Source: Glaciecola amylolytica
Lineage (GTDB): Bacteria > Bacteroidota > Bacteroidia > Flavobacteriales_D > Crocinitomicaceae
Reading direction: 5' to 3'
Assembly: GCA_003856375.1 (NCBI GenBank)
Contig: CP034120.1
Location: forward strand, 1,488,001-1,552,000
DNA length: 64,000 nucleotides
Shown here: piece after piece, positions 2 through 42,396 of the stretch
Layout of the letters: the number at the start of each line of letters is the position of its first letter
Numbering within the stretch: position 1 is the stretch's first letter
Translations under genes and position numbers: made by a program
Notes under the pieces: generated by a model
Told to the model about the DNA's origin: nothing
Seen by the model: the letters and a program-made list of their open reading frames with translations, nothing else
Databases searched by the model: none

Positions 2-1468
2 GTAAACGAACTTTTTCCGGTTTTTCTCAAAACCAATGAGTTGAATGTCTTGTTGGTAGGCGGGGGAAATGTGGCACTGGAAAAACTGAGGGCTTTATTG
101 ACGAATTCTCCCGAAACCAATATCTCGGTCGTTTCGAGAGAATATCAGGAAGCGTTTATAGACTTTGCAGAACGTCATGAAAACGTTTATCTGGAAACCC
201 GTGACTTCGAAAAAGAAGACATTCTGGATAAACAACTGATCATTACGGCCTTGAATGACGTGGATCTTTCAGAGGAAATCATGAATCTGGCAAGTGATTC
301 GGGAATTCTGTACAATGCAGCCGATAAACCTGATTTGTGTACATTTTACCTCGGATCGGTAGTTCGGAAAGGACATCTGAAGATTGGAATTTCGACCAAT
401 GGAAAGTCGCCGACTTTAGCCCGGCGGCTCAAAGAAATCCTGGACGAAAATTTACCGGATGAACTGAATGAGTCTGCTGTTCAGCTGAATTCCCTGCGAA
501 GCTTTCTGAAAGGAGATTTCAGGAAGAAAGTCCGGAAAATGAATAAAGCCACAGCAGGTTTGTTGGTTCGGGCGGAAAGGCCCTGGTATTTTTTTTCTCC
601 ATGGAAATTACTGGCATATCTGGTCAGTATTTTGGGAGTAATGTTAGCCGGACATTTGATCTTCACATTGATTCCGCTGGAAACAATCTGGATTTCCGCT
701 TCCGGTGCACTTGATTCATTGACCATTGATTTTGCGTACTTCATATTGGCTGGTTTCATTGCACAATTGATCGATGGTGCATTGGGAATGGCTTACGGAA
801 TCAGCGCAACAACTTTTTTACTTTCGTTTGGAATTTCTCCGGCGATTTCCAGTATGGCGGTTCATGCTTCGGAGATTTTTACCAGCGGCGTATCCGGAAT
901 TATGCACCTGCGCTTTGGAAACGTCAATAACCGCTTGTTCAAATCAATCCTGATTCCGGGTGTTTTAGGAGCGATCGTGGGAGCATACGTCTTGTCGGAA
1001 TTTGAATCTTACAACAACATCATCAAACCTGTTGTAAGTGCATATACTTTGTTTCTGGGAGCTTTGATCATTTATAAAGTGATCCGGAAAAAACAAACCC
1101 GGAAAAAGGTCACTAAAGTTGGTTGGTTGGGATTGCTTGGCGGTTTTCTTGATTCTATCGGCGGTGGTGGCTGGGGACCGGTTGTTTCTTCGACATTGAT
1201 TGCCAGAGGAAAACATCCGAGAATGATTGTCGGATCGGTGAATCTGGCGGAATTTTTTGTTTCGCTGGCCAGTTCTTTCACCTTTTTCACGGTTTTGGGA
1301 GCAAGTTCTGTTTGGCAGCCGATTGTCGGGTTGATTCTTGGTGGAGTTTGTGCAGCACCGATCGCTGCTTATCTGGCATCGAAGTTAAATATCAAAGCCT
1401 TGATGCTTTTTGTGGGAATTGTAGTTGTGATAGTGAGTTTACGCAACTTTTTAACCTTGTTATTCTAG
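2..1468 (+). CDS. Siroheme synthase (precorrin-2 dehydrogenase/ferrochelatase-like) fused to TSUP transporter, 5' edge at window start
   Basis: The reading frame is open from the first codon of the window (V-N-E-L-F-P at nt 2). Since nt 1 is g, the ATG may be only two bases outside. The N-terminal ~150 residues look like the Met8p/CysG-N fold: a GGGNVALEK dinucleotide-binding loop, NAADKPDLCTF (probably containing the catalytic Asp) and the GISTNGKSPTLARRL motif. This family makes sirohydrochlorin and inserts iron to give siroheme. A hydrophobic helix follows near residue 200. The last ~245 residues form a TSUP (TauE/SafE) membrane domain with two similar halves, the second marked by GGGGWGPV. 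It is the first gene of a cys operon, with cysH four bases downstream. The TTG at nt 41 would cut into the conserved N-terminus, so it is not the start. Inference: siroheme supply for sulfite reductase is joined to sulfate or sulfite-type anion transport. Confidence 0.85.
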   Translation, partial: VNELFPVFLKTNELNVLLVGGGNVALEKLRALLTNSPETNISVVSREYQEAFIDFAERHENVYLETRDFEKEDILDKQLIITALNDVDLSEEIMNLASDSGILYNAADKPDLCTFYLGSVVRKGHLKIGISTNGKSPTLARRLKEILDENLPDELNESAVQLNSLRSFLKGDFRKKVRKMNKATAGLLVRAERPWYFFSPWKLLAYLVSILGVMLAGHLIFTLIPLETIWISASGALDSLTIDFAYFILAGFIAQLIDGALGMAYGISATTFLLSFGISPAISSMAVHASEIFTSGVSGIMHLRFGNVNNRLFKSILIPGVLGAIVGAYVLSEFESYNNIIKPVVSAYTLFLGALIIYKVIRKKQTRKKVTKVGWLGLLGGFLDSIGGGGWGPVVSSTLIARGKHPRMIVGSVNLAEFFVSLASSFTFFTVLGASSVWQPIVGLILGGVCAAPIAAYLASKLNIKALMLFVGIVVVIVSLRNFLTLLF

Positions 1469-1472
1469 AAAA

Positions 1473-2159
1473 ATGATTGAGAAAATAAAAGAAATCACGT
1501 ACGACACGCTGGAGGATTACCTGCTTCGCTTATCGGAAATAAAAGATGTGAATATTGCTTTTTCAAGCAGTTTGAGCTGGGAAGATCAGGTAATCACGCA
1601 CGCTATTTTTAGTCAGAATTTACCGATCCGGGTTTTTACCTTGGATACGGGAAGATTGTTTCCTGAAACTTACAGCGTGATTGAATCGACACGTCAGCGT
1701 TATCAAAAATCGTTGGAAGTTTATTTTCCGAAGCACGAAGCTGTTGAGGATTTGTTGACCAGGAAAGGACCAATCAGCTTCTATGAATCGATTGAAAACA
1801 GAAAAGAGTGCTGTTTTATTCGAAAAGTGGAACCTCTGAACCGTGCTTTGGAATATGTCGATGTTTGGATCACCGGATTGAGAGCGGAGCATTCCGAAAA
1901 CAGAAACGATCTGAGCCTGGTTGAGCTTGATCCGGGAAGAGGAATCGTGAAAGTAAATCCTTTGGCTTTCTGGAGTCTGGAAGACGTGAAATCATACGTC
2001 GAAAAACACAACATTCCGAGTAATGTACTTCAGGATCGCGGATTTGTGAGTTTGGGCTGCCAGCCTTGTACAAGAGCAATCCGTGAAGGAGAACCGTTCC
2101 GCGCCGGAAGATGGTGGTGGGAAGACAACTCGAAGAAAGAATGTGGTTTGCATAGTTAA
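1473..2159 (+). CDS. cysH: Adenylyl-sulfate (APS) reductase, CysH family
   Basis: Reduces activated sulfate to sulfite with thioredoxin or glutaredoxin as donor, in the cytoplasm. The 228-residue protein has the PP-loop-type start FSSSLSWEDQ (30-39) and LDTGRLFPETY. Cysteine pairs at 113-114 (KECCFIRKVEPL) and 196/199 (GCQPC) are the known ligands of a [4Fe-4S] cluster. The catalytic cysteine is Cys224 in the C-terminal ECGLH. The two pairs mark the APS-using bacterial type, as opposed to the cluster-free PAPS reductase of E. coli. No CysC kinase is visible nearby, which fits direct use of APS. It starts 4 nt after the upstream fusion gene, so the two are surely co-transcribed. Confidence 0.95.
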   Translation: MIEKIKEITYDTLEDYLLRLSEIKDVNIAFSSSLSWEDQVITHAIFSQNLPIRVFTLDTGRLFPETYSVIESTRQRYQKSLEVYFPKHEAVEDLLTRKGPISFYESIENRKECCFIRKVEPLNRALEYVDVWITGLRAEHSENRNDLSLVELDPGRGIVKVNPLAFWSLEDVKSYVEKHNIPSNVLQDRGFVSLGCQPCTRAIREGEPFRAGRWWWEDNSKKECGLHS

Positions 2160-2163
2160 CTAA

Positions 2164-2199
2164 TTTCCTCCCTCAAGGGGAGACTAAGAGAGGGGTAAA
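2164..2199. repeat. Intergenic G/C-block repeat, copy 1 (CCCTC-GAGGG type)
   Basis: Between cysH and cysD, the sequence reads ttcctccctcaaggggagac followed by taagagagggg. A pyrimidine block, a short spacer and two purine blocks are also seen at 3171-3204 and, diverged, at 12142-12172. The pyrimidine block can pair with either purine block, giving a small hairpin. Similar elements are common between genes in Bacteroidota; their function is not known to me. Confidence 0.55.
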
Positions 2200-2229
2200 C
2201 GAATTCTATTAATAGAATAAAGAATAAAA

Positions 2230-3129
2230 ATGAAAGATTATTTAGACGAATTAGAGGCGGAAGCCATTTACATTTTACGCGAAGTAGCGGGACAGTTTGA
2301 TAGACCGGCTTTACTTTTTTCAGGAGGAAAAGACAGCATTTGTCTGGTACATCTGGCTTTGAAAGCATTTCGCCCGGGGAAATTCCCTTTTCCTTTAGTT
2401 CATATCGATACCGGACATAATTTTCCGGAAGCATTGGATTTCAGAGATCATTTGGCCGTTGAGCTTGGAGAGCGTTTGATTGTCCGAAAAGTAGAAGATA
2501 CGATCGCCAGAAACCGGCTTCAGGATGCACGTGGGAAGTTTCCGAGCAGAAATGCACTTCAAACCAATACTTTGTTGGAAACAATTGAAGAATTTGAGTT
2601 TGATGCCTGTATCGGCGGAGCGCGAAGGGACGAGGAAAAAGCAAGAGCGAAAGAACGGGTTTTCTCTGTGCGTGATGAGTTCGGACAATGGGATCCGAAA
2701 CTGCAAAGACCGGAATTGTGGAATATCTACAACGGGAAGATTCACAAGGGAGAAAACGTACGCGTCTTTCCGATCAGCAACTGGACGGAACTCGATGTGT
2801 GGAATTACATCAAACGGGAAAACATTCAGCTTCCGGAAATTTACTTTACACACGAACGCGAATGTGTTTTGACGGAAAGCGGTCAGCTCATGGCAAACAA
2901 CGAATTCCTGAATCTGGATGAAAACGATGTGTTGGTAACGCGAAAAGTGCGCTACAGAACGGTTGGAGATATGACTTGTACTGCCGCAGTGGAAAGTGAA
3001 GCCTTCACAGTCGAAGATATTATCGCAGAAATTCGTGAAGCGAAGATTTCCGAGCGTGGAGCCACGCGCATGGACGACCGGATTTCTGAAGCCGCGATGG
3101 AAGACAGAAAAAAAGGAGGATATTTTTAA
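2230..3129 (+). CDS. cysD: Sulfate adenylyltransferase subunit 2 (ATP sulfurylase small subunit)
   Basis: Catalytic subunit of the CysDN ATP sulfurylase, which makes APS from ATP and sulfate. The 299 residues match the usual length (E. coli ~302). The PP-loop SGGKDS lies at residues 31-36. Family blocks follow: HIDTGHNFPEALDFRD, GGARRDEEKARAKER and the region ending RATRMDDR-type (GATRMDDRISEAAMEDRKKGGYF end). The ATG at 2230 follows an A-rich stretch without a clear ribosome binding site, as usual for this phylum. It lies in the cys operon between cysH and cysN. Confidence 0.97.
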   Translation: MKDYLDELEAEAIYILREVAGQFDRPALLFSGGKDSICLVHLALKAFRPGKFPFPLVHIDTGHNFPEALDFRDHLAVELGERLIVRKVEDTIARNRLQDARGKFPSRNALQTNTLLETIEEFEFDACIGGARRDEEKARAKERVFSVRDEFGQWDPKLQRPELWNIYNGKIHKGENVRVFPISNWTELDVWNYIKRENIQLPEIYFTHERECVLTESGQLMANNEFLNLDENDVLVTRKVRYRTVGDMTCTAAVESEAFTVEDIIAEIREAKISERGATRMDDRISEAAMEDRKKGGYF

Positions 3130-3170
3130 TTATTAATTAGCAATTATCAATGTTGAAAGAGGATCAGGCT

Positions 3171-3204
3171 TCCCCCCTTGGAGGGGGATTGAGGGGGAGG
3201 ATTC
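3171..3204. repeat. Intergenic G/C-block repeat, copy 2
   Basis: The sequence ttccccccttggagggggat followed by tgagggggagga sits between cysD and cysN. It has the same build as the copy at 2164-2199. The pyrimidine run at 3172-3178 can pair with either of the two G-runs. An open frame runs through it (ATG at 3150) and would add 27 glycine-rich residues to CysN. I read this as repeat, not protein. Confidence 0.6.
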
Positions 3205-3230
3205 AACAGAATAATTCATCATTCAGCAAA

Positions 3231-4472
3231 ATGGATTTATTACGATTTTTTACAGCAGGAAACGTAGATGACGGGAAAAGCACTTTGATCGGTCGTCTGC
3301 TTTACGATAGTCAGTCAATATCAACGGATATTATTGAAACACTTACGCGTCAGAGCAAAACGACGGGTGAATATGCCGACATTGATCTGGCACTTTTAAC
3401 TGATGGTTTGAGAGCCGAACGCGAGCAGGGAATTACCATTGATGTGGCCTACAAATATTTTTCGACAGATAAACGAAAATTCATCATTGCGGATACTCCC
3501 GGACATGCTCAGTACACACGAAATATGTTCACCGGAGCTTCAACGGCTCAGCTGGCAATTATTTTAGTTGATGCGCGAAATGGAATCACGGATCAGACAA
3601 AACGCCACAGTATTATTTCTGCTACACTTGGAATTCCAAAGGTTTTGGTGTGTATCAATAAGATGGATCTGGTGGAATACAGCGAAGAAAGATTCAATGA
3701 AATCGCAGCAGCATACCGCGATTTTGCTGAACTGATCGGACTTAAGAGTGTTGATTTCATTCCGACATCGGCGCTCGTTGGAGACAATGTTGTTCATAGC
3801 AGCGAACGATTCGGATGGTACAAAGGATTGCCTTTGCTTCAATATCTCGAAAGTGTTGAAGTGGAAGAAGCAGAATCCTCCGATGAAGCCCGCTTTCAGG
3901 TGCAGTTGGTTATCCGTCCTCAAACCGATGAATTACATGATTACAGAGGATATGCAGGAAGTGTTTTAAGCGGAACGTTTCAATTGGGAGATGAGGTTAC
4001 GGTTTTACCTTCCGGACAGCAAAGTAAAATTGCACGGATAGAATACAACCTGTCAGATGTTGACGAAGCTTCGAAAAACCAGCCGGTGGTGCTTCATCTG
4101 GAAGATGATCTGGATGTGAGCAGGGGAGATTCCATTGTTTTGTCTTCTGCATTGCCTCTCTCTGAAAAGGAAATAAATGCTACTGTCTGCTGGATGGATA
4201 ATCAGCCATTTCAAGCCGGTCAGAAATTATTATTGCAGCAAAACAGCTTCAGAACAAAAGCTTCCATCCGTGTGATTACGTCGAAAATAGATATTCACAA
4301 CTTTCAGGAATTGGAAAGTGACGGAGAATTAAAGCTGAATGAATTGGCAAAGGTTCAGATCCGGACAGCAGAAGCAGTCAGTTATGATGCTTTCAAAAAA
4401 CAAGCAAAAACAGGAGCTTTTATCCTGATTAATGAGAATACGAATCAAACCGTTGCAGCGGGAGTCATTTAG
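3231..4472 (+). CDS. cysN: Sulfate adenylyltransferase subunit 1 (GTPase)
   Basis: GTPase subunit of ATP sulfurylase; GTP hydrolysis drives APS formation by CysD. Starting at 3231 the protein begins MDLLRFFTAGNVDDGKST, the classic CysN start, and has 413 residues. Visible motifs are G1 GNVDDGKS (10-17), switch I EREQGITI (63-70), G3 DTPGH (88-92) and G4 NKMDL (143-147), then two beta-barrel domains. The C-terminus (TVAAGVI) is intact and carries no CysC kinase domain, in keeping with an APS reductase upstream. An in-frame ATG at 3150 exists but reads through an intergenic repeat, so 3231 is preferred. Confidence 0.95.
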   Translation: MDLLRFFTAGNVDDGKSTLIGRLLYDSQSISTDIIETLTRQSKTTGEYADIDLALLTDGLRAEREQGITIDVAYKYFSTDKRKFIIADTPGHAQYTRNMFTGASTAQLAIILVDARNGITDQTKRHSIISATLGIPKVLVCINKMDLVEYSEERFNEIAAAYRDFAELIGLKSVDFIPTSALVGDNVVHSSERFGWYKGLPLLQYLESVEVEEAESSDEARFQVQLVIRPQTDELHDYRGYAGSVLSGTFQLGDEVTVLPSGQQSKIARIEYNLSDVDEASKNQPVVLHLEDDLDVSRGDSIVLSSALPLSEKEINATVCWMDNQPFQAGQKLLLQQNSFRTKASIRVITSKIDIHNFQELESDGELKLNELAKVQIRTAEAVSYDAFKKQAKTGAFILINENTNQTVAAGVI

Positions 4473-4527
4473 AGAGTTCAAAAGTTAAAATATAATTGAA
4501 CTGATTTATTAAAAACAAAATAAAACC

Positions 4528-5538
4528 ATGATTGAAACAGATATCGTTATTATCGGAGCAGGTCCGGTTGGACTTTTTACCGTGTTTGAAGCAGGATTAT
4601 TAAAACTGCGTTGTCATTTAATCGATTCATTGCCTCAACCCGGAGGACAATGTTCTGAAATCTATCCGAAGAAGCCGATTTATGATATTCCGGGCTTTCC
4701 ATCCGTATTGGCAGGTGATCTGATTGATAATCTGATGGAACAGGCAGCGCCTTTCAAACCCGGATTTACTTTGGGAGAAGCCGCAACCGATATTGAGAAA
4801 GAAGCTGACGGTACATTCATCGTTTCAACCATTAAAGGAACGAAACACAAAGCGAAAGTGGTGATTATTGCCGGAGGTTTGGGAGTGTTCGAACCGCGTA
4901 AGCCGCCCATCGAAAGTATCGGACTGTTTGAAGAAAAAGGAGTTGATTATATGATCAAGGATCCGGAAGTGTTTCGCGGTAAAAAATGCGTCATAGCCGG
5001 AGGTGGCGATTCTGCTTTGGATTGGTCGATTTATCTGGCAGAAAACAACATTGCTTCTGAAATAACCCTTGTTCATCGAAGTGCTTCTTTCCGTGGTCAT
5101 CTGGATTCGGTGCAAAAAGTCATTCACATGGCTGAAACCGGAAAAATAGCACTCATTACGGAAGCTGAAGTTGTTGATCTGAAAGGAGGAACAAATCTGG
5201 AGGAAGTGGTGATCAGTCATTCGAAAAACGGAGAGATTATCACAAAAGCAGATCACTTTATTCCTTTGTTCGGGTTGAAACCTGCTCTTGGACCAATTGC
5301 TGATTGGGGATTGGAGATTGAGAAGAGCGCCATCAAAGTTGATACCCTGGATTATTCTACCAATATTCCCGGAATATATGCCATTGGCGATGTAAATACA
5401 TATGAAAACAAACTGAAGTTGATTTTGTGCGGTTTTCACGAAGGAACATTGGCAGTTCAATCTGCATTTGCCCGCATTCATCCGGACAAAAAGAATATCC
5501 TGAAGTATACAACGGTAAATGGGGTAAACGGATTCTAG
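4528..5538 (+). CDS. Ferredoxin--NADP(+) reductase, thioredoxin-reductase-like (YumC type)
   Basis: FAD- and NADPH-binding flavoprotein of 336 residues. The FAD loop GAGPVG is at 10-15, the GGQCSEIYP block at 39-47, the NADPH loop GGGDSALDW at 158-166, and the C-terminal FAD-binding GDVNTYENKLKLI near 293. There is no CxxC redox pair at the position used by thioredoxin reductases, so this belongs to the TrxR-like ferredoxin reductases. It is last in the cys operon, 55 nt after cysN. Inference: it passes electrons from NADPH through ferredoxin to the sulfite reductase or the APS reduction step. A bidirectional terminator follows at 5611. Confidence 0.88.
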   Translation: MIETDIVIIGAGPVGLFTVFEAGLLKLRCHLIDSLPQPGGQCSEIYPKKPIYDIPGFPSVLAGDLIDNLMEQAAPFKPGFTLGEAATDIEKEADGTFIVSTIKGTKHKAKVVIIAGGLGVFEPRKPPIESIGLFEEKGVDYMIKDPEVFRGKKCVIAGGGDSALDWSIYLAENNIASEITLVHRSASFRGHLDSVQKVIHMAETGKIALITEAEVVDLKGGTNLEEVVISHSKNGEIITKADHFIPLFGLKPALGPIADWGLEIEKSAIKVDTLDYSTNIPGIYAIGDVNTYENKLKLILCGFHEGTLAVQSAFARIHPDKKNILKYTTVNGVNGF

Positions 5539-37841: not shown

Positions 37842-38177
37842 TTAAATTACCCCCAAATGAAATCCGTCTTTTCGATCAAAAGTAAAAAGTGCTGCCAAAA
37901 GCATGTATTTTTCAACTTGACTTTCGGAGATGGACGCAATGGTTGCTCCTTGTTCTGAAGCGATATGGATAATATCAGCCTGCCAAAGTTTCACCAGGTG
38001 ATCATGAATGGTGGAGCGCGTCATTCCAAAATAGTCTGCAAATTCCTGGTTGTTTAATTTTTTTCTCTCAAGAAGTAATTCCATGATTTTTACACGACAG
38101 GGATGTGCAAGTGCTCTTCCTACCATGGAAATCGAAAGTGTTTGAGGAGAATAGTCAAAGTATTTAATTACGCCCAT
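37842..38177 (-). CDS. ArsR-type winged-helix transcriptional regulator
   Basis: A 111-residue DNA-binding protein. The winged helix covers about residues 20-85: LAHPCRVKIMELLLERKKLN, then the recognition part FADYFGMTRSTIHDHLVKLW and the wing DIIHIASEQG. The C-terminus (LAALFTFDRKDGFHLGVI) is short. No metal-binding cysteines are seen, so it may sense something else or act by protein contacts. It is upstream of tsaC on the same strand and 226 bp from the divergent two-component genes. Target unknown. Confidence 0.85.
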   Translation of the reverse strand: MGVIKYFDYSPQTLSISMVGRALAHPCRVKIMELLLERKKLNNQEFADYFGMTRSTIHDHLVKLWQADIIHIASEQGATIASISESQVEKYMLLAALFTFDRKDGFHLGVI

Positions 38178-38403: not shown

Positions 38404-39087
38404 GTGAAAAAAATATTGATTATTGAGGATGATCCGCAGATTAGTTCCCTGGTTCAAAAAGGACTTACGGAAGAAAACTTTGAAACGAAAGTTTCCAACG
38501 ACGGACTTAGGGGCCTGGATGAATTTTATTTCTGGAATCCGGATCTGATCATTTTGGATATTATGTTGCCCGGAATGAATGGCCTGCAGGTTTGTTCGAA
38601 AATCCGGGAAACGAGTCAGGTTCCGATTTTGATGCTTACCGCTTTGGGAACGGCTGAAAATGTTGCTTTGGGATTGGATTCAGGAGCAGATGATTATTTA
38701 CCCAAACCGTTTAAGTTTATCGAATTGAATGCACGGGTGAAATCTTTACTGCGCAGAATGGAGAATTTGAATCCGGTTCAGAATACGATTTTCCAGTTTG
38801 ATGATCTGGTGATTGATGATAATCAGAAAACGGTTATGAGGGCTGGAAATCCGATTAGTTTGACGTCTACCGAATATCGCCTTTTGTTGTTGTTTGTAAT
38901 GAATCCCAAAAAGGTACTTTCACGGATCGATATTCTGGAGGACGTCTGGGGAATTGATTTTGAGTCAGGAACCAACGTGGTGGATGTTTACGTAAACTAT
39001 CTGCGCAAAAAGCTGGTGCAATTCGGCGGTTCCAAATTGATTCATACCGTAATTGGAATGGGATATGTAATGCGCGAAGAAGAATGA
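38404..39087 (+). CDS. OmpR/PhoB-family response regulator
   Basis: A 227-residue regulator. The receiver domain has the acidic pair in IIEDDPQ, phospho-acceptor Asp52 in LIILDIMLPG and Lys101 in LPKPF. The C-terminal winged helix (NPISLTSTEYRLLLLFVMNP, then SRIDILEDVWG and VDVYVNYLRKKL) is of OmpR/PhoB type, known to bind direct repeats of about 11 nt. GTG at 38404 is the likely start, since VKKILIIEDDP matches the family start; the longer frame uses TTG. Its stop overlaps the kinase start by 4 bp (39084-39087). Confidence 0.93.
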   Translation: MKKILIIEDDPQISSLVQKGLTEENFETKVSNDGLRGLDEFYFWNPDLIILDIMLPGMNGLQVCSKIRETSQVPILMLTALGTAENVALGLDSGADDYLPKPFKFIELNARVKSLLRRMENLNPVQNTIFQFDDLVIDDNQKTVMRAGNPISLTSTEYRLLLLFVMNPKKVLSRIDILEDVWGIDFESGTNVVDVYVNYLRKKLVQFGGSKLIHTVIGMGYVMREEE

Positions 39088-40454
39088 AAATCAGAACACG
39101 GATTATTTGGTTGCTGAGCACTACATTTGCTTTTTTGGTACTGGTCTTCAGTACGTTTGTATATGTTCTGTCTTCCAATTACGTGTTCAATGATTTTTAC
39201 GACCGCTTAAAGACGCGCACTACGACGACTATTCGTATTGAATTGGATGATCATCGTGACGACCGGGAATTTGTAAAAGATTTCAAACAGGAATACCTTG
39301 AAAAACTGCCGGAAGAGAAAAGTGTGATTGTCCCGCTGAATAACCATTTCAAACCCATCGATTCAAACTGGAAGATCAAGACTGACAAAGAATTTGTTCA
39401 AAAGGTTATCCGCAATCATTTTGCTCAGGAACGAAAAAACAACCTGTTAAAGTACGGAATCCTGTATGAGGCAAAAGACGGAAAGAAGTACGTGGTTTAC
39501 ACTTCTGCAAAGAATATGTACTATACCAAGTACAAACATTACCTTGGAGGCTTACTGATTTCGATGTTTCTGGTTGCGGTAGTATTGATCTTCGGAGTTT
39601 CGCTCTGGTTGTCCAAAAGACTCATCAAACCGATTAGTGATCTGAGTTCCAGTGTTCATAAGATCGGGACGGAAAACCTGCATTTTCGCATTGAAAATAA
39701 GCAGGAAGGCGATGAATTAGGAGAATTGATCCAAACGATGAACAATATGCTGGATCGTCTGGAAACGAGTTTTGAGACTCAAAACAACTTCATCAGCAAT
39801 GCCTCACACGAATTAAATACGCCGCTTACGAGTATTATCGGACAAGCAGATCTAATGCTCAGCAAAGAACGAAGTACGGAAGATTATAAAACAGCATTGA
39901 ATAATATTTTGGAGCAGGCTGAGAAATTGAATAAGAAAACGAAGGCTTTGTTGTTTTTGGCTCAAACCGGTTTCGACGGTAAGAAAATGACGATCGAAAA
40001 GCTGCGGATCGATGAATTGATCTTCGAAACAATGGAAACAGTCGACAGGATCATTCCCGGAAACAAAATCAAATTTGCTTTTGAAACATTACCTGATAAT
40101 CTGAACTTGCTTGAGGTCATGGGAAATTCTCAATTGCTGCAATTAGCCCTTTCGAATGTTCTTTTGAATGCAACCAAGTATTCTGAAAATAAGGAAGTAC
40201 GGATTTATTTAAGTCACACTTCCGAATACCTTTCGATTCATGTAAAAGATCAGGGAATTGGAATTCCGCCCAAAGATCTGAGTCATATTTACGATCCTTT
40301 TTTCAGGGCTTCAAATACTACTTCCTTCGAAGGATATGGAATTGGACTACCCTTGACAAGAAACATTATGCGCCAGCATAAAGGAAAGATTATCGTACAT
40401 TCCGAAGAGAACTCGGGCACTTTGGTAAGCTTGCTTTTGCCCTATAAATCCTAA
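39084..40454 (+). CDS. HAMP-domain sensor histidine kinase
   Basis: Partner kinase of the response regulator, 456 residues. Membrane helix 1 is at about 8-30, followed by a periplasmic sensor region of ~120 residues rich in Lys, Asp and Arg, helix 2 at about 154-177, HAMP (to ~230), and HisKA with His242 in NASHELNTPLTSI. The HATPase has DQGIGIPPKD and GYGIGLPLTRNI. The signal is unknown. Transcription is coupled to the regulator gene; a repeat-bearing regulatory region follows the kinase gene. Confidence 0.93.
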   Translation: MKIRTRIIWLLSTTFAFLVLVFSTFVYVLSSNYVFNDFYDRLKTRTTTTIRIELDDHRDDREFVKDFKQEYLEKLPEEKSVIVPLNNHFKPIDSNWKIKTDKEFVQKVIRNHFAQERKNNLLKYGILYEAKDGKKYVVYTSAKNMYYTKYKHYLGGLLISMFLVAVVLIFGVSLWLSKRLIKPISDLSSSVHKIGTENLHFRIENKQEGDELGELIQTMNNMLDRLETSFETQNNFISNASHELNTPLTSIIGQADLMLSKERSTEDYKTALNNILEQAEKLNKKTKALLFLAQTGFDGKKMTIEKLRIDELIFETMETVDRIIPGNKIKFAFETLPDNLNLLEVMGNSQLLQLALSNVLLNATKYSENKEVRIYLSHTSEYLSIHVKDQGIGIPPKDLSHIYDPFFRASNTTSFEGYGIGLPLTRNIMRQHKGKIIVHSEENSGTLVSLLLPYKS

Positions 40455-40471: not shown

Positions 40472-40526
40472 AATTTTAATCTGGTTCTAATCCGGTTCTT
40501 ATACCGTCCTTATACCCGTGCTCTAA
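40472..40526 (+). promoter_or_regulatory. Five contiguous 11-nt direct repeats, probable response-regulator box
   Basis: Consecutive units read AATTTTAATCT (40472), GGTTCTAATCC (40483), GGTTCTTATAC (40494), CGTCCTTATAC (40505) and CCGTGCTCTAA (40516). The three middle ones are clearest; the consensus is about GGTTCTTATac. The strict 11-nt period is one DNA helix turn, as in boxes of OmpR/PhoB regulators. They cover the -33 zone of a likely promoter (TAATTTTA, 40524-40531) for the USP-like gene at 40548. Binding by the regulator encoded at 38404 is inference. Confidence 0.65.
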
Positions 40527-40547
40527 TTTTACCAAAAAATATTAGAG

Positions 40548-41030
40548 ATGGCAGCAACAATTTTAATACCGACAGATTTCAAAGTGTCTTCAATTGAGTC
40601 ACTAAAAGCTTTACTTCAATTCCAAAATGAGGACTCGTTGAACGTGCTTCTGGTTCATGGAATTTATTTATCCAATTCAATTTCCGATTTGTTGTTTTTT
40701 GATCAAAGCGATTTGAAAATTGAAATGGCAGGGAAGGAGTTCTTGAACAAATTGACGGATCTTGAAAAGGAACTGGGTTCAAAAGTAAAATCCATTCAGG
40801 TAACTTTCTTCAGCGGACTCAGACAAAACTCCTTTGATCAGTTTGCGGAAGCAAATAAAGTGAATCGGATCATTATTCCTTATGAATTGGAATTCGATTG
40901 GTCACATAAAAAGAGCATGGATATTCTGCCTTTCCTTCACAAATCAAAAATTACGAAACAGTTAGTCGCTTGGGATAACAATCATTACTCCAGTGAAGCG
41001 AATCAAACATATGTAACAGCATTAGTATGA
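40548..41030 (+). CDS. Universal-stress-protein-like protein
   Basis: A 160-residue cytoplasmic protein. The start ATILIPTDFKVSSIESLKAL, the strand LNVLLVHGIY and the later NRIIIPYELEFDW follow the order of the USP (HUP) alpha/beta fold. The ATP-binding GxxGxG(S) loop is absent, so it is probably a non-nucleotide-binding relative. It starts 94 nt after the kinase gene behind the 11-nt repeats and overlaps the next gene by 4 bp. It is probably a target of the neighbouring two-component system. Confidence 0.7.
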   Translation: MAATILIPTDFKVSSIESLKALLQFQNEDSLNVLLVHGIYLSNSISDLLFFDQSDLKIEMAGKEFLNKLTDLEKELGSKVKSIQVTFFSGLRQNSFDQFAEANKVNRIIIPYELEFDWSHKKSMDILPFLHKSKITKQLVAWDNNHYSSEANQTYVTALV

Positions 41031-41488
41031 ACAGAAAATTGATCATATCGTCATTAATTGCCCTGATAACGCTTAGTTCATTCGGATATTATGTTTTTAG
41101 CCATTCGTATTATCCTGAACGCGCTATTCTGGGAGAATGGAAAGAAGTTTCCTGGGTTTACGACAGAAATGATCTGAACCAAAAAGTGAAACAGGAGATC
41201 GATACCAATGAGCGTGCAGATATTGCAAATCATTTGGTGATCCACCAGTTTGAAAACTGGACTTTCAAAAAGGATTATTCGATTAAACTTCACGAAAGAA
41301 CTGGAAATGAGCACGTAGCCAAATGGCGTTTGAAAGATCGCGGACGAATTCTGACAATCATCAATGATGACGGAACGCATGAAGCGTATTCGGTCGAATC
41401 AATGAAGAAAGACGAACTTGTTTTGCATTTCGACACAGATGTTCACGCACGTGGAATTGTAAAAATCACACTTAAAAAAGTGAACTAA
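41027..41488 (+). CDS. Membrane-anchored lipocalin-like protein, unknown function
   Basis: A 153-residue protein with one N-terminal hydrophobic helix (IISSLIALITLSSFGYYVF) that is either an anchor or an uncleaved signal. The rest resembles the small beta-barrel 'lipocalin-like' domains of Bacteroidota, as shown by ILGEWKEVSWVY, FENWTFKKDYS, KWRLKDRGRILTIIND and LVLHFDTD. The ATG overlaps the upstream stop by 4 bp (ATGA). No enzymatic motif seen. Confidence 0.7.
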   Translation: MNRKLIISSLIALITLSSFGYYVFSHSYYPERAILGEWKEVSWVYDRNDLNQKVKQEIDTNERADIANHLVIHQFENWTFKKDYSIKLHERTGNEHVAKWRLKDRGRILTIINDDGTHEAYSVESMKKDELVLHFDTDVHARGIVKITLKKVN

Positions 41489-41574: not shown

Positions 41575-42396
41575 ATGTTACGCAGATTTAGTCATAGCAG
41601 ATCTTTTCAGGATAATTTGAAATTGGGAATCTTCACAGCAATCATTGCCGGAATGGTGAACGTTGCGTCCTTGGTTTTGTTTTATTCCTTTACATCGAAT
41701 TTGACCGGACATTTTGCCATTTTGGCTCAGGAAATTGCTGATGGAAAGTGGTTTCAGATGTTGATCGTTCTTTTTTGGATCTTATTATTCTTTGCAGGAA
41801 GTTTCCTGTCCAATAACCTCATTATAAACAGTACGAAGAAAAATGCATTCATTTCTCACAGTATTCCGATGATTCTGGAAATCCTGTGCTTCGTCTTCGT
41901 GGGAATTTACGGACAGTTTTTCTACACGGAAACCTTGACACAAACAGAGATTCTGGTTTCAGTGTTGTTGTTTTCCATGGGACTTCAAAACGGTTTGACG
42001 GCAAGTATTTCCAACTTTCAGGTGAAAACAACCCATTTAACGGGTTTAACAACTGATTTGGCGATTCATCTTTCGATGTTAACGAAGAAAAAATACCGTT
42101 TGAATAAGCAAGTGGTTGAAAAAACGAAATTGATGGCTGCAATTATGGGATCTTATCTGGTAGGTGGAATTCTTTCAGGATTGATTATTCACTATGTGCA
42201 TTTTCAGGTATTCTACGCTATTTCTGCTGCAATGTTGGGAGTTTTGGCTTATGATTTCATCAAAACATATGTTCCTTTCTTTGTGAATAAAAAGAAACAC
42301 GATAATCGATTGAAAACGAATCTGGAAAAGATTCAGGAATCAATCAAAAGCAATACATCCAGAAATGGGAATGTTCTTTCAGAAAGCAAGAGGTAG
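41575..42396 (+). CDS. DUF1275 (YoaK) family membrane protein
   Basis: A 273-residue inner-membrane protein with about six helices. The start DNLKLGIFTAIIAGMVNVAS and SNLTGHFAILAQEIADGKW are the typical DUF1275 words, as are QNGLTASISN and TTHLTGLTTDLAI. The C-terminal ~40 residues are basic and cytoplasmic. The function of the family is unknown. It is third in the set behind the 11-nt repeats, after an 86-nt gap holding a hairpin repeat. It is convergent with trmD, five bases away. Confidence 0.88.
   Translation: MLRRFSHSRSFQDNLKLGIFTAIIAGMVNVASLVLFYSFTSNLTGHFAILAQEIADGKWFQMLIVLFWILLFFAGSFLSNNLIINSTKKNAFISHSIPMILEILCFVFVGIYGQFFYTETLTQTEILVSVLLFSMGLQNGLTASISNFQVKTTHLTGLTTDLAIHLSMLTKKKYRLNKQVVEKTKLMAAIMGSYLVGGILSGLIIHYVHFQVFYAISAAMLGVLAYDFIKTYVPFFVNKKKHDNRLKTNLEKIQESIKSNTSRNGNVLSESKR

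Follow-up and report, generated by a model that had tools for sequence, protein, structure and literature searches.

A tandem array of TTCTAAT-type boxes as the putative operator of an OmpR/PhoB-type two-component system and a conserved three-gene set in Bacteroidota

The pho box of Escherichia coli, the target of PhoB, consists of 11-bp direct repeats which replace the -35 element at class II promoters. PhoP of Mycobacterium tuberculosis is described as recognising, as a tandem dimer, 7-bp direct repeats with a strict 4-bp spacer, three or four repeats in a row resulting in higher affinity (PMC4832192). Here, I describe an array of boxes in a Bacteroidota genome which shares with the PhoB system the 11-bp direct repeats in place of an upstream promoter element, and differs from it in box sequence and regulon; membership of the PhoB/Pho system was rejected on NCBIfam scores (191.8, below 296.2, for TIGR02154; 158.9, below 270, for NF053854). 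With M. tuberculosis PhoP it has in common the OmpR/PhoB family and the 7-bp motif with 4-bp spacer, in boxes set head to tail, and the best match of its regulator among solved sequences is PhoP itself (3r0j/5ed4, 9ji3). Box sequence, target genes and phylum are different, and the site is a four-box array anchored on the -7 element of Bacteroidota. The regulator and the adjoining kinase also resemble those of the CusR/CzcR heavy-metal systems (TIGR01387 and TIGR01386), and similar arrays stand before outer-membrane efflux genes in other members of the class; unlike in those systems, a family search found no metal-efflux gene among the three genes downstream of the array, and membership of CusRS/CzcRS was likewise rejected (202, below 279.2, and 209.9, below 292.55, for TIGR01387 and TIGR01386).

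By analogy with the 7 bp plus 4 bp of PhoP, the mechanism is likely an ordinary one, that of an OmpR/PhoB tandem operator. The features of the direct-repeat mode of this family are found together, namely a receiver and a Trans_reg_C domain in the protein, and head-to-tail boxes of about 7 bp with an 11-bp period in a promoter. The five-gene module around the array appears to be conserved and, in the literature searched, undescribed: searches returned no description of the module or of a TTCTAAT code, the matches to bare TTCTAAT having been only sampled.

The window, i.e. the whole 64,000-nucleotide stretch analysed, covers positions 1488001-1552000 of a 4.6-Mb single-contig genome (hereafter G000), and coordinates below are those of the window. 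The original prediction placed an OmpR/PhoB-type regulator 1.4 kb upstream of the array; the domains of the product agree, with PF00072 at 92.9 bits and PF00486 (Trans_reg_C, the winged helix) at 82.1 bits, both above cut-off, in a gene on the forward strand at 38404..39087 (likely GTG start at 38404). D53 and the stretch TNVVDVYVNYLRKK are invariant among seven aligned sequences of the regulator. Divergent from this gene lies a small gene of ArsR-type HTH (37842-38177, reverse strand). The sensor histidine kinase gene (39084..40454, forward), with HAMP, HisKA and HATPase_c domains, overlaps the regulator gene by 4 nt.

Downstream of the array, on the same strand, are the genes of a USP-like protein (40548..41030), of a lipocalin-like protein with an N-terminal helix (41027..41488) and of a DUF1275 membrane protein (41575..42396). 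All three labels had been given in the original prediction and hold, the first two by weak profile matches and predicted fold. PF00582 does not match the USP-like protein of the window, and matches 23 of 47 members of its family at E <= 0.1 (best 8e-6). Its AlphaFold model (pLDDT 86) has as best solved match 2dum, the hypothetical protein PH0823 (E 3.3e-7), with named USP structures from rank 4 onwards (3hgm, E 3.5e-6). Lipocalin_4 (PF13648) gives the lipocalin-like protein 19.7 bits, below the cut-off of 22.4, and matches 37 of 47 family members at E <= 0.1 (best 3.1e-6); the eight-stranded model (pLDDT 88) is closest to 4qrl, a Bacteroides lipocalin-like protein (E 1.1e-4, TMq 0.46, TMt 0.62). 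The models thus predict a universal-stress-protein fold for the first product and a lipocalin-like beta barrel for the second, both assignments being at the level of fold only on account of TM-scores of about 0.4-0.6. The modelled helix at residues 3-25 of the lipocalin-like protein may perhaps act as a membrane anchor. The third product is a clear member of PF06912 (105.4 bits, cut-off 25.4), a family whose function is described as unidentified in PMC12316277.

Shortly after the stop codon of the kinase gene, positions 40474-40513 read on the forward strand as four T-rich 7-bp boxes of the form YYYTWAT, with 4-bp spacers. Sequence reading and genus comparison give TTTTAAT (40474..40480), TTCTAAT (40485..40491) and TTCTTAT (40496..40502) as boxes 1 to 3, and the proximal box 4, TCCTTAT (40507..40513), starts 17 nt upstream of the -7 element, at the -33 position. 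The predicted 11-nt period is exact, with starts at 40474, 40485, 40496 and 40507. The number of boxes had been put at five, as tandem 11-mers over 40472-40526; all five strings are present as placed and four are true repeats, whereas the fifth (40516-40526) is not a box, its in-register heptamer GTGCTCT agreeing with TTCTAAT at 2 of 7 positions. The CTCTAAT string found there was rejected as well: box 4 is 14 nt away, and the TAAT forms part of the -7 element.

In the 93-nt gap between the kinase and USP-like genes, the best lag-11 self-identity over 29 columns is 24, a value that none of 1000 dinucleotide shuffles reached, all lags between 5 and 25 being allowed, and in a scan of the 64-kb window the top lag-11 score is the box array. 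Genome-wide, a three-box pattern with up to two mismatches gives 18 matches against 17 with the reversed-pattern control; with 0 or 1 mismatch there are two matches, both of them the array.

The -7 box suspected behind the array was recognised as TAATTTTA (40524..40531, forward) from genus alignment and published consensus; it opens with the last three bases of the claimed fifth box, and reads TAnnTTTG in the seven other genus members with the module. For the primary sigma factor in Bacteroides fragilis, TAnnTTTG is described as the -7 consensus, and Flavobacterium johnsoniae is said to show it too (PMC7366714). In a survey of 81 gaps (74 kinase-USP gaps from the phylum and 7 from the order set), the element is present with at least five of six consensus positions in 75. 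With a looser box pattern, boxes start 17, 28 and 39 nt upstream of the TA of the -7 element in 38, 38 and 41 cases, smaller sets being found at 18 (16), 29 (11), 3 (11), and 19 and 27 (6 each). The phase was judged in the 31 of 46 non-redundant gaps that have a perfect TAnnTTTG: a box stands at 17/28/39 in 21, at 18/29/40 in two and at neither in eight, seven of which have a box at 50, i.e. in the same phase as 17/28/39. The eighth (L143) has boxes at 3, 14, 25 and 36, and its -7 element may be mis-picked. At the operon promoter in the window no TTTG is found at the -33 place, where the boxes sit instead; this layout is probably that of a promoter under class II activation.

Within the order, 13 of 59 relatives were matched when the USP-like protein was used as a single query sequence, so the module is patchy or diverged there (L013-L015, weak matches to other USP proteins, were left out). 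At all 12 order loci inspected, the kinase, USP-like, lipocalin-like and DUF1275 genes stand in the same order; the regulator lies within 11 of the 12 stretches and was also found in the twelfth genome. In the genus its presence is patchy too (8 of 14 genomes), and all eight members with the module have four boxes at steps of 11, 11 and 11. Four loci from other genera or families have 2, 2, 3 and 4 relaxed 11-nt pairs, some of them separated by steps of 14, 19, 22 or 41 nt. The box pattern is reached by at most 1 in 1000 shuffles in any of the 12 loci; the lag-11 self-similarity of G001, G007, G023 and G031 is reached by 10-42 in 1000, any lag being allowed.

Beyond the order, named genomes were scanned with the DUF1275 alignment, and the best 80 of the 150 relatives obtained were analysed; they belong to Bacteroidota as far as record titles tell. 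The five genes stand in order at 65 of these best 80 loci. Nine of the remaining 15 are truncated where a contig or stretch ends (L081, L099, L123 and six Sphingobacterium loci), four (L080, L086, L102 and L116) are without regulator, kinase or USP-like gene, L106 is without the USP-like gene, and L147 is without a lipocalin-like match. The kinase gene lies just upstream of the USP-like gene in 74 loci, the other six having no such gap in the stretch. The period, the loss of which in relatives had been named as evidence against the prediction, is kept in all of these gaps: each of the 74 has at least one relaxed 11-nt pair and up to seven (one in 15 gaps, two in 33, three to seven in 26), and box-to-box distances peak at 11, 22 and 33. 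The pooled box is TTCTAAT followed by a weak CTCA, part of this consensus being fixed by the search pattern. After removal of near-duplicates, all 46 gaps left have a pair, 115 in total, whereas 300 shuffles gave 0.55 on average and 3 at most; in 18 of the 46, two 11-nt pairs start 28-32 nt apart.

The 80 loci, 960,831 bases in all, contain 95 stricter pairs (two TTYTAAT boxes), and 70 lie in the kinase-USP gaps, which total 11,734 bases. Another USP-like gene follows 13 of the rest and the regulator gene 8, so that 91 precede one of these two kinds of gene; 3 are found elsewhere and 1 on the opposite strand. In G000 itself, no TTYTWAT pair is found upstream of the regulator gene. The array accompanies the output gene, duplicated USP-like genes having arrays of their own. 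In six Sphingobacterium loci (L135, L138, L140, L141, L142 and L144; at about 400-5000) a second USP-like gene stands behind an array of its own, some 4.4 kb further along in the two loci read completely, and in L110 arrays precede the regulator gene, the USP-like gene and a second USP-like gene. Between the two USP-like copies of L135 are genes matching the ABC_membrane, HlyD and OEP families. In L106, from which the USP-like gene is missing, boxes still stand at 50, 39 and 17 nt before TAACTTTG; no pair of the relaxed pattern is found there, the upstream box GTCTAAT falling outside it. It is the location of the strict pairs, the duplication of the USP-like gene and the loss in L106 that would carry the link between array and regulator. 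The four loci clearly without regulator and kinase (L080, L086, L102 and L116) have no strict pair, one relaxed T-rich pair being present in L116; this lends weak support to the link, since strict pairs are also missing from 21 of 75 kinase-bearing loci, which have relaxed boxes only (54 have a strict pair). L081, cut 110 nt before its lipocalin-like gene, decides nothing on array absence.

The boxes, their period and their conservation are observed, and so are the phase which they keep to the -7 element and their occurrence beside the regulator/kinase pair. From these the following reading is proposed, with a probability of about 0.85 as judged from the sequences: the array would be the operator of the USP-like/lipocalin-like/DUF1275 operon, bound by the adjacent regulator as a tandem oligomer which activates transcription. 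Given a signal, for which envelope or ion stress would be a guess, the kinase would phosphorylate the regulator, whose monomers would then line up head to tail on the array, one to each of its four 7-bp boxes and so one every 11 bp, as a cooperative oligomer. Such binding would be phosphorylation-dependent. With box 4 beginning 17 nt before the -7 element, at the -33 place, the bound regulator would recruit RNA polymerase (class II activation), its effect being presumably activation rather than repression. The recurrence of this layout in many relatives makes the array the likely switch from the sensor to the three genes.

That the repeat arose by chance or from low complexity in a T-rich stretch, or belongs to a transcribed leader or terminator, is suggested by its base composition and by its place just behind a stop codon, and is nevertheless scarcely credible: the array is kept in distant relatives, and low complexity was rejected on the shuffles, which did not reproduce the repeat in the window gap or in the 46 gaps of relatives. 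Lying upstream of the -7 element, the array is probably not in the leader; an RNA element was rejected too, no Rfam match at gathering score being found within the window. The regulator might also repress the operon from an operator that overlaps the promoter, as boxes over the -33 region would suit this too. Boxes in the -33 place are, however, the layout typical of activators in the OmpR/PhoB family, and the missing TTTG, together with a spacing kept in most relatives, makes repression improbable.

Another objection is that a different regulator, an OmpR-type paralogue or a shared CusR-like factor, binds the array, the neighbouring pair being merely adjacent. G000 has eight near-full-length OmpR-type matches, the adjacent regulator included, and in the class as a whole 15 of 395 genomes carry three-box TTYTAAT arrays (23 matches; reversed control, 2). 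Fifteen of these 23 places were read, one locus per genome; 11 gave no clear picture, three (L155, L163 and L164) precede OEP-family outer-membrane efflux genes and one an MgtC-family gene, and at L155 and L163 a related kinase adjoins the array. Judging from these sequences, related regulators probably use this box code as well. The same type of box before genes of other systems means that a related regulator could share the site, and this is the main caution against giving every site to the adjacent regulator. Yet the array lies between kinase and output gene in 74/74 such gaps and before the regulator gene itself in eight cases; no paralogue is more than 40% identical to the regulator, as against the 53-57% of its orthologues in other genera and families; and G000 offers no second three-box place at 0-1 mismatch for a paralogue to serve. 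A different binder is hence quite improbable, the adjacent regulator being the likely one.

The regulon had been called self-contained, which is only mostly true: no other place in G000 has three boxes at 0-1 mismatch, while weaker two-box sites are found at other loci of the genus. The exact pair of TTYTWAT boxes has 6 matches in G000 (reversed control, 3), two of which are the array, and the TTYTAAT pair has 35 in 14 genus genomes (reversed control, 15), eight being the main array; locus context was obtained for 30 of the 35, plus one of the other five. Three sites recur, and may be regarded, from sequence comparison, as candidate regulon members. A two-box site lies in the intergenic region before a putative sucC, a label read from the sequence without family search, in G000, G013 and G008 (L175, L192 and L257). 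A reversed pair, TTCTAATCTCATTTTAAT, stands about 88 nt upstream of a DUF2147 gene (L178, L184, L191, L206 and L239), the strict pair being present in 5 of 8 genus genomes with the regulator and 0 of 4 without it, two without a DUF2147 match excluded.

The third site precedes a gene of the Na_H_Exchanger (antiporter) family, and its strict two-box pair is again seen in 5 of the 8 regulator-bearing genomes and in none of 4 others; a looser pattern, chosen after seeing the sequences, gives 8/8 and 1/4. The count excludes G010 and G004, which have distant matches only, and the match in G003 is split in two pieces. Each time the first box lies 39 nt from TAATTTTA, in the phase of the main array. 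The two-box site is seen in L208-L215 and is degenerate in L216; in G005, without the regulator, a degenerate pair is kept before the antiporter gene.

As for the paralogues of G000, their regions (L064-L069) were scanned for lag-11 self-similarity alone, the top two windows of each being considered. Near OmpR-type paralogues, 11-nt repeats of a different sequence lie at about 8026 in L067 and at about 9595-9704 in L065; they are perhaps the operators of those paralogues.

To sum up in terms of biology, the module may be a dedicated envelope or ion-stress module of several Bacteroidota orders, where the gain of a tandem-oligomer switch would depend on how many TTCTAAT boxes there are and how they are phased, and whose regulator would also reach antiporter-family and DUF2147 genes; this wider picture is offered tentatively, and as a whole it is rather unlikely to be right. 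In many Bacteroidota, TTCTAAT N4 would be a readable binding code for a two-component system that stands beside three uncharacterised genes, making its targets predictable in those genomes, and the module may offer a handle on the DUF1275 membrane family.
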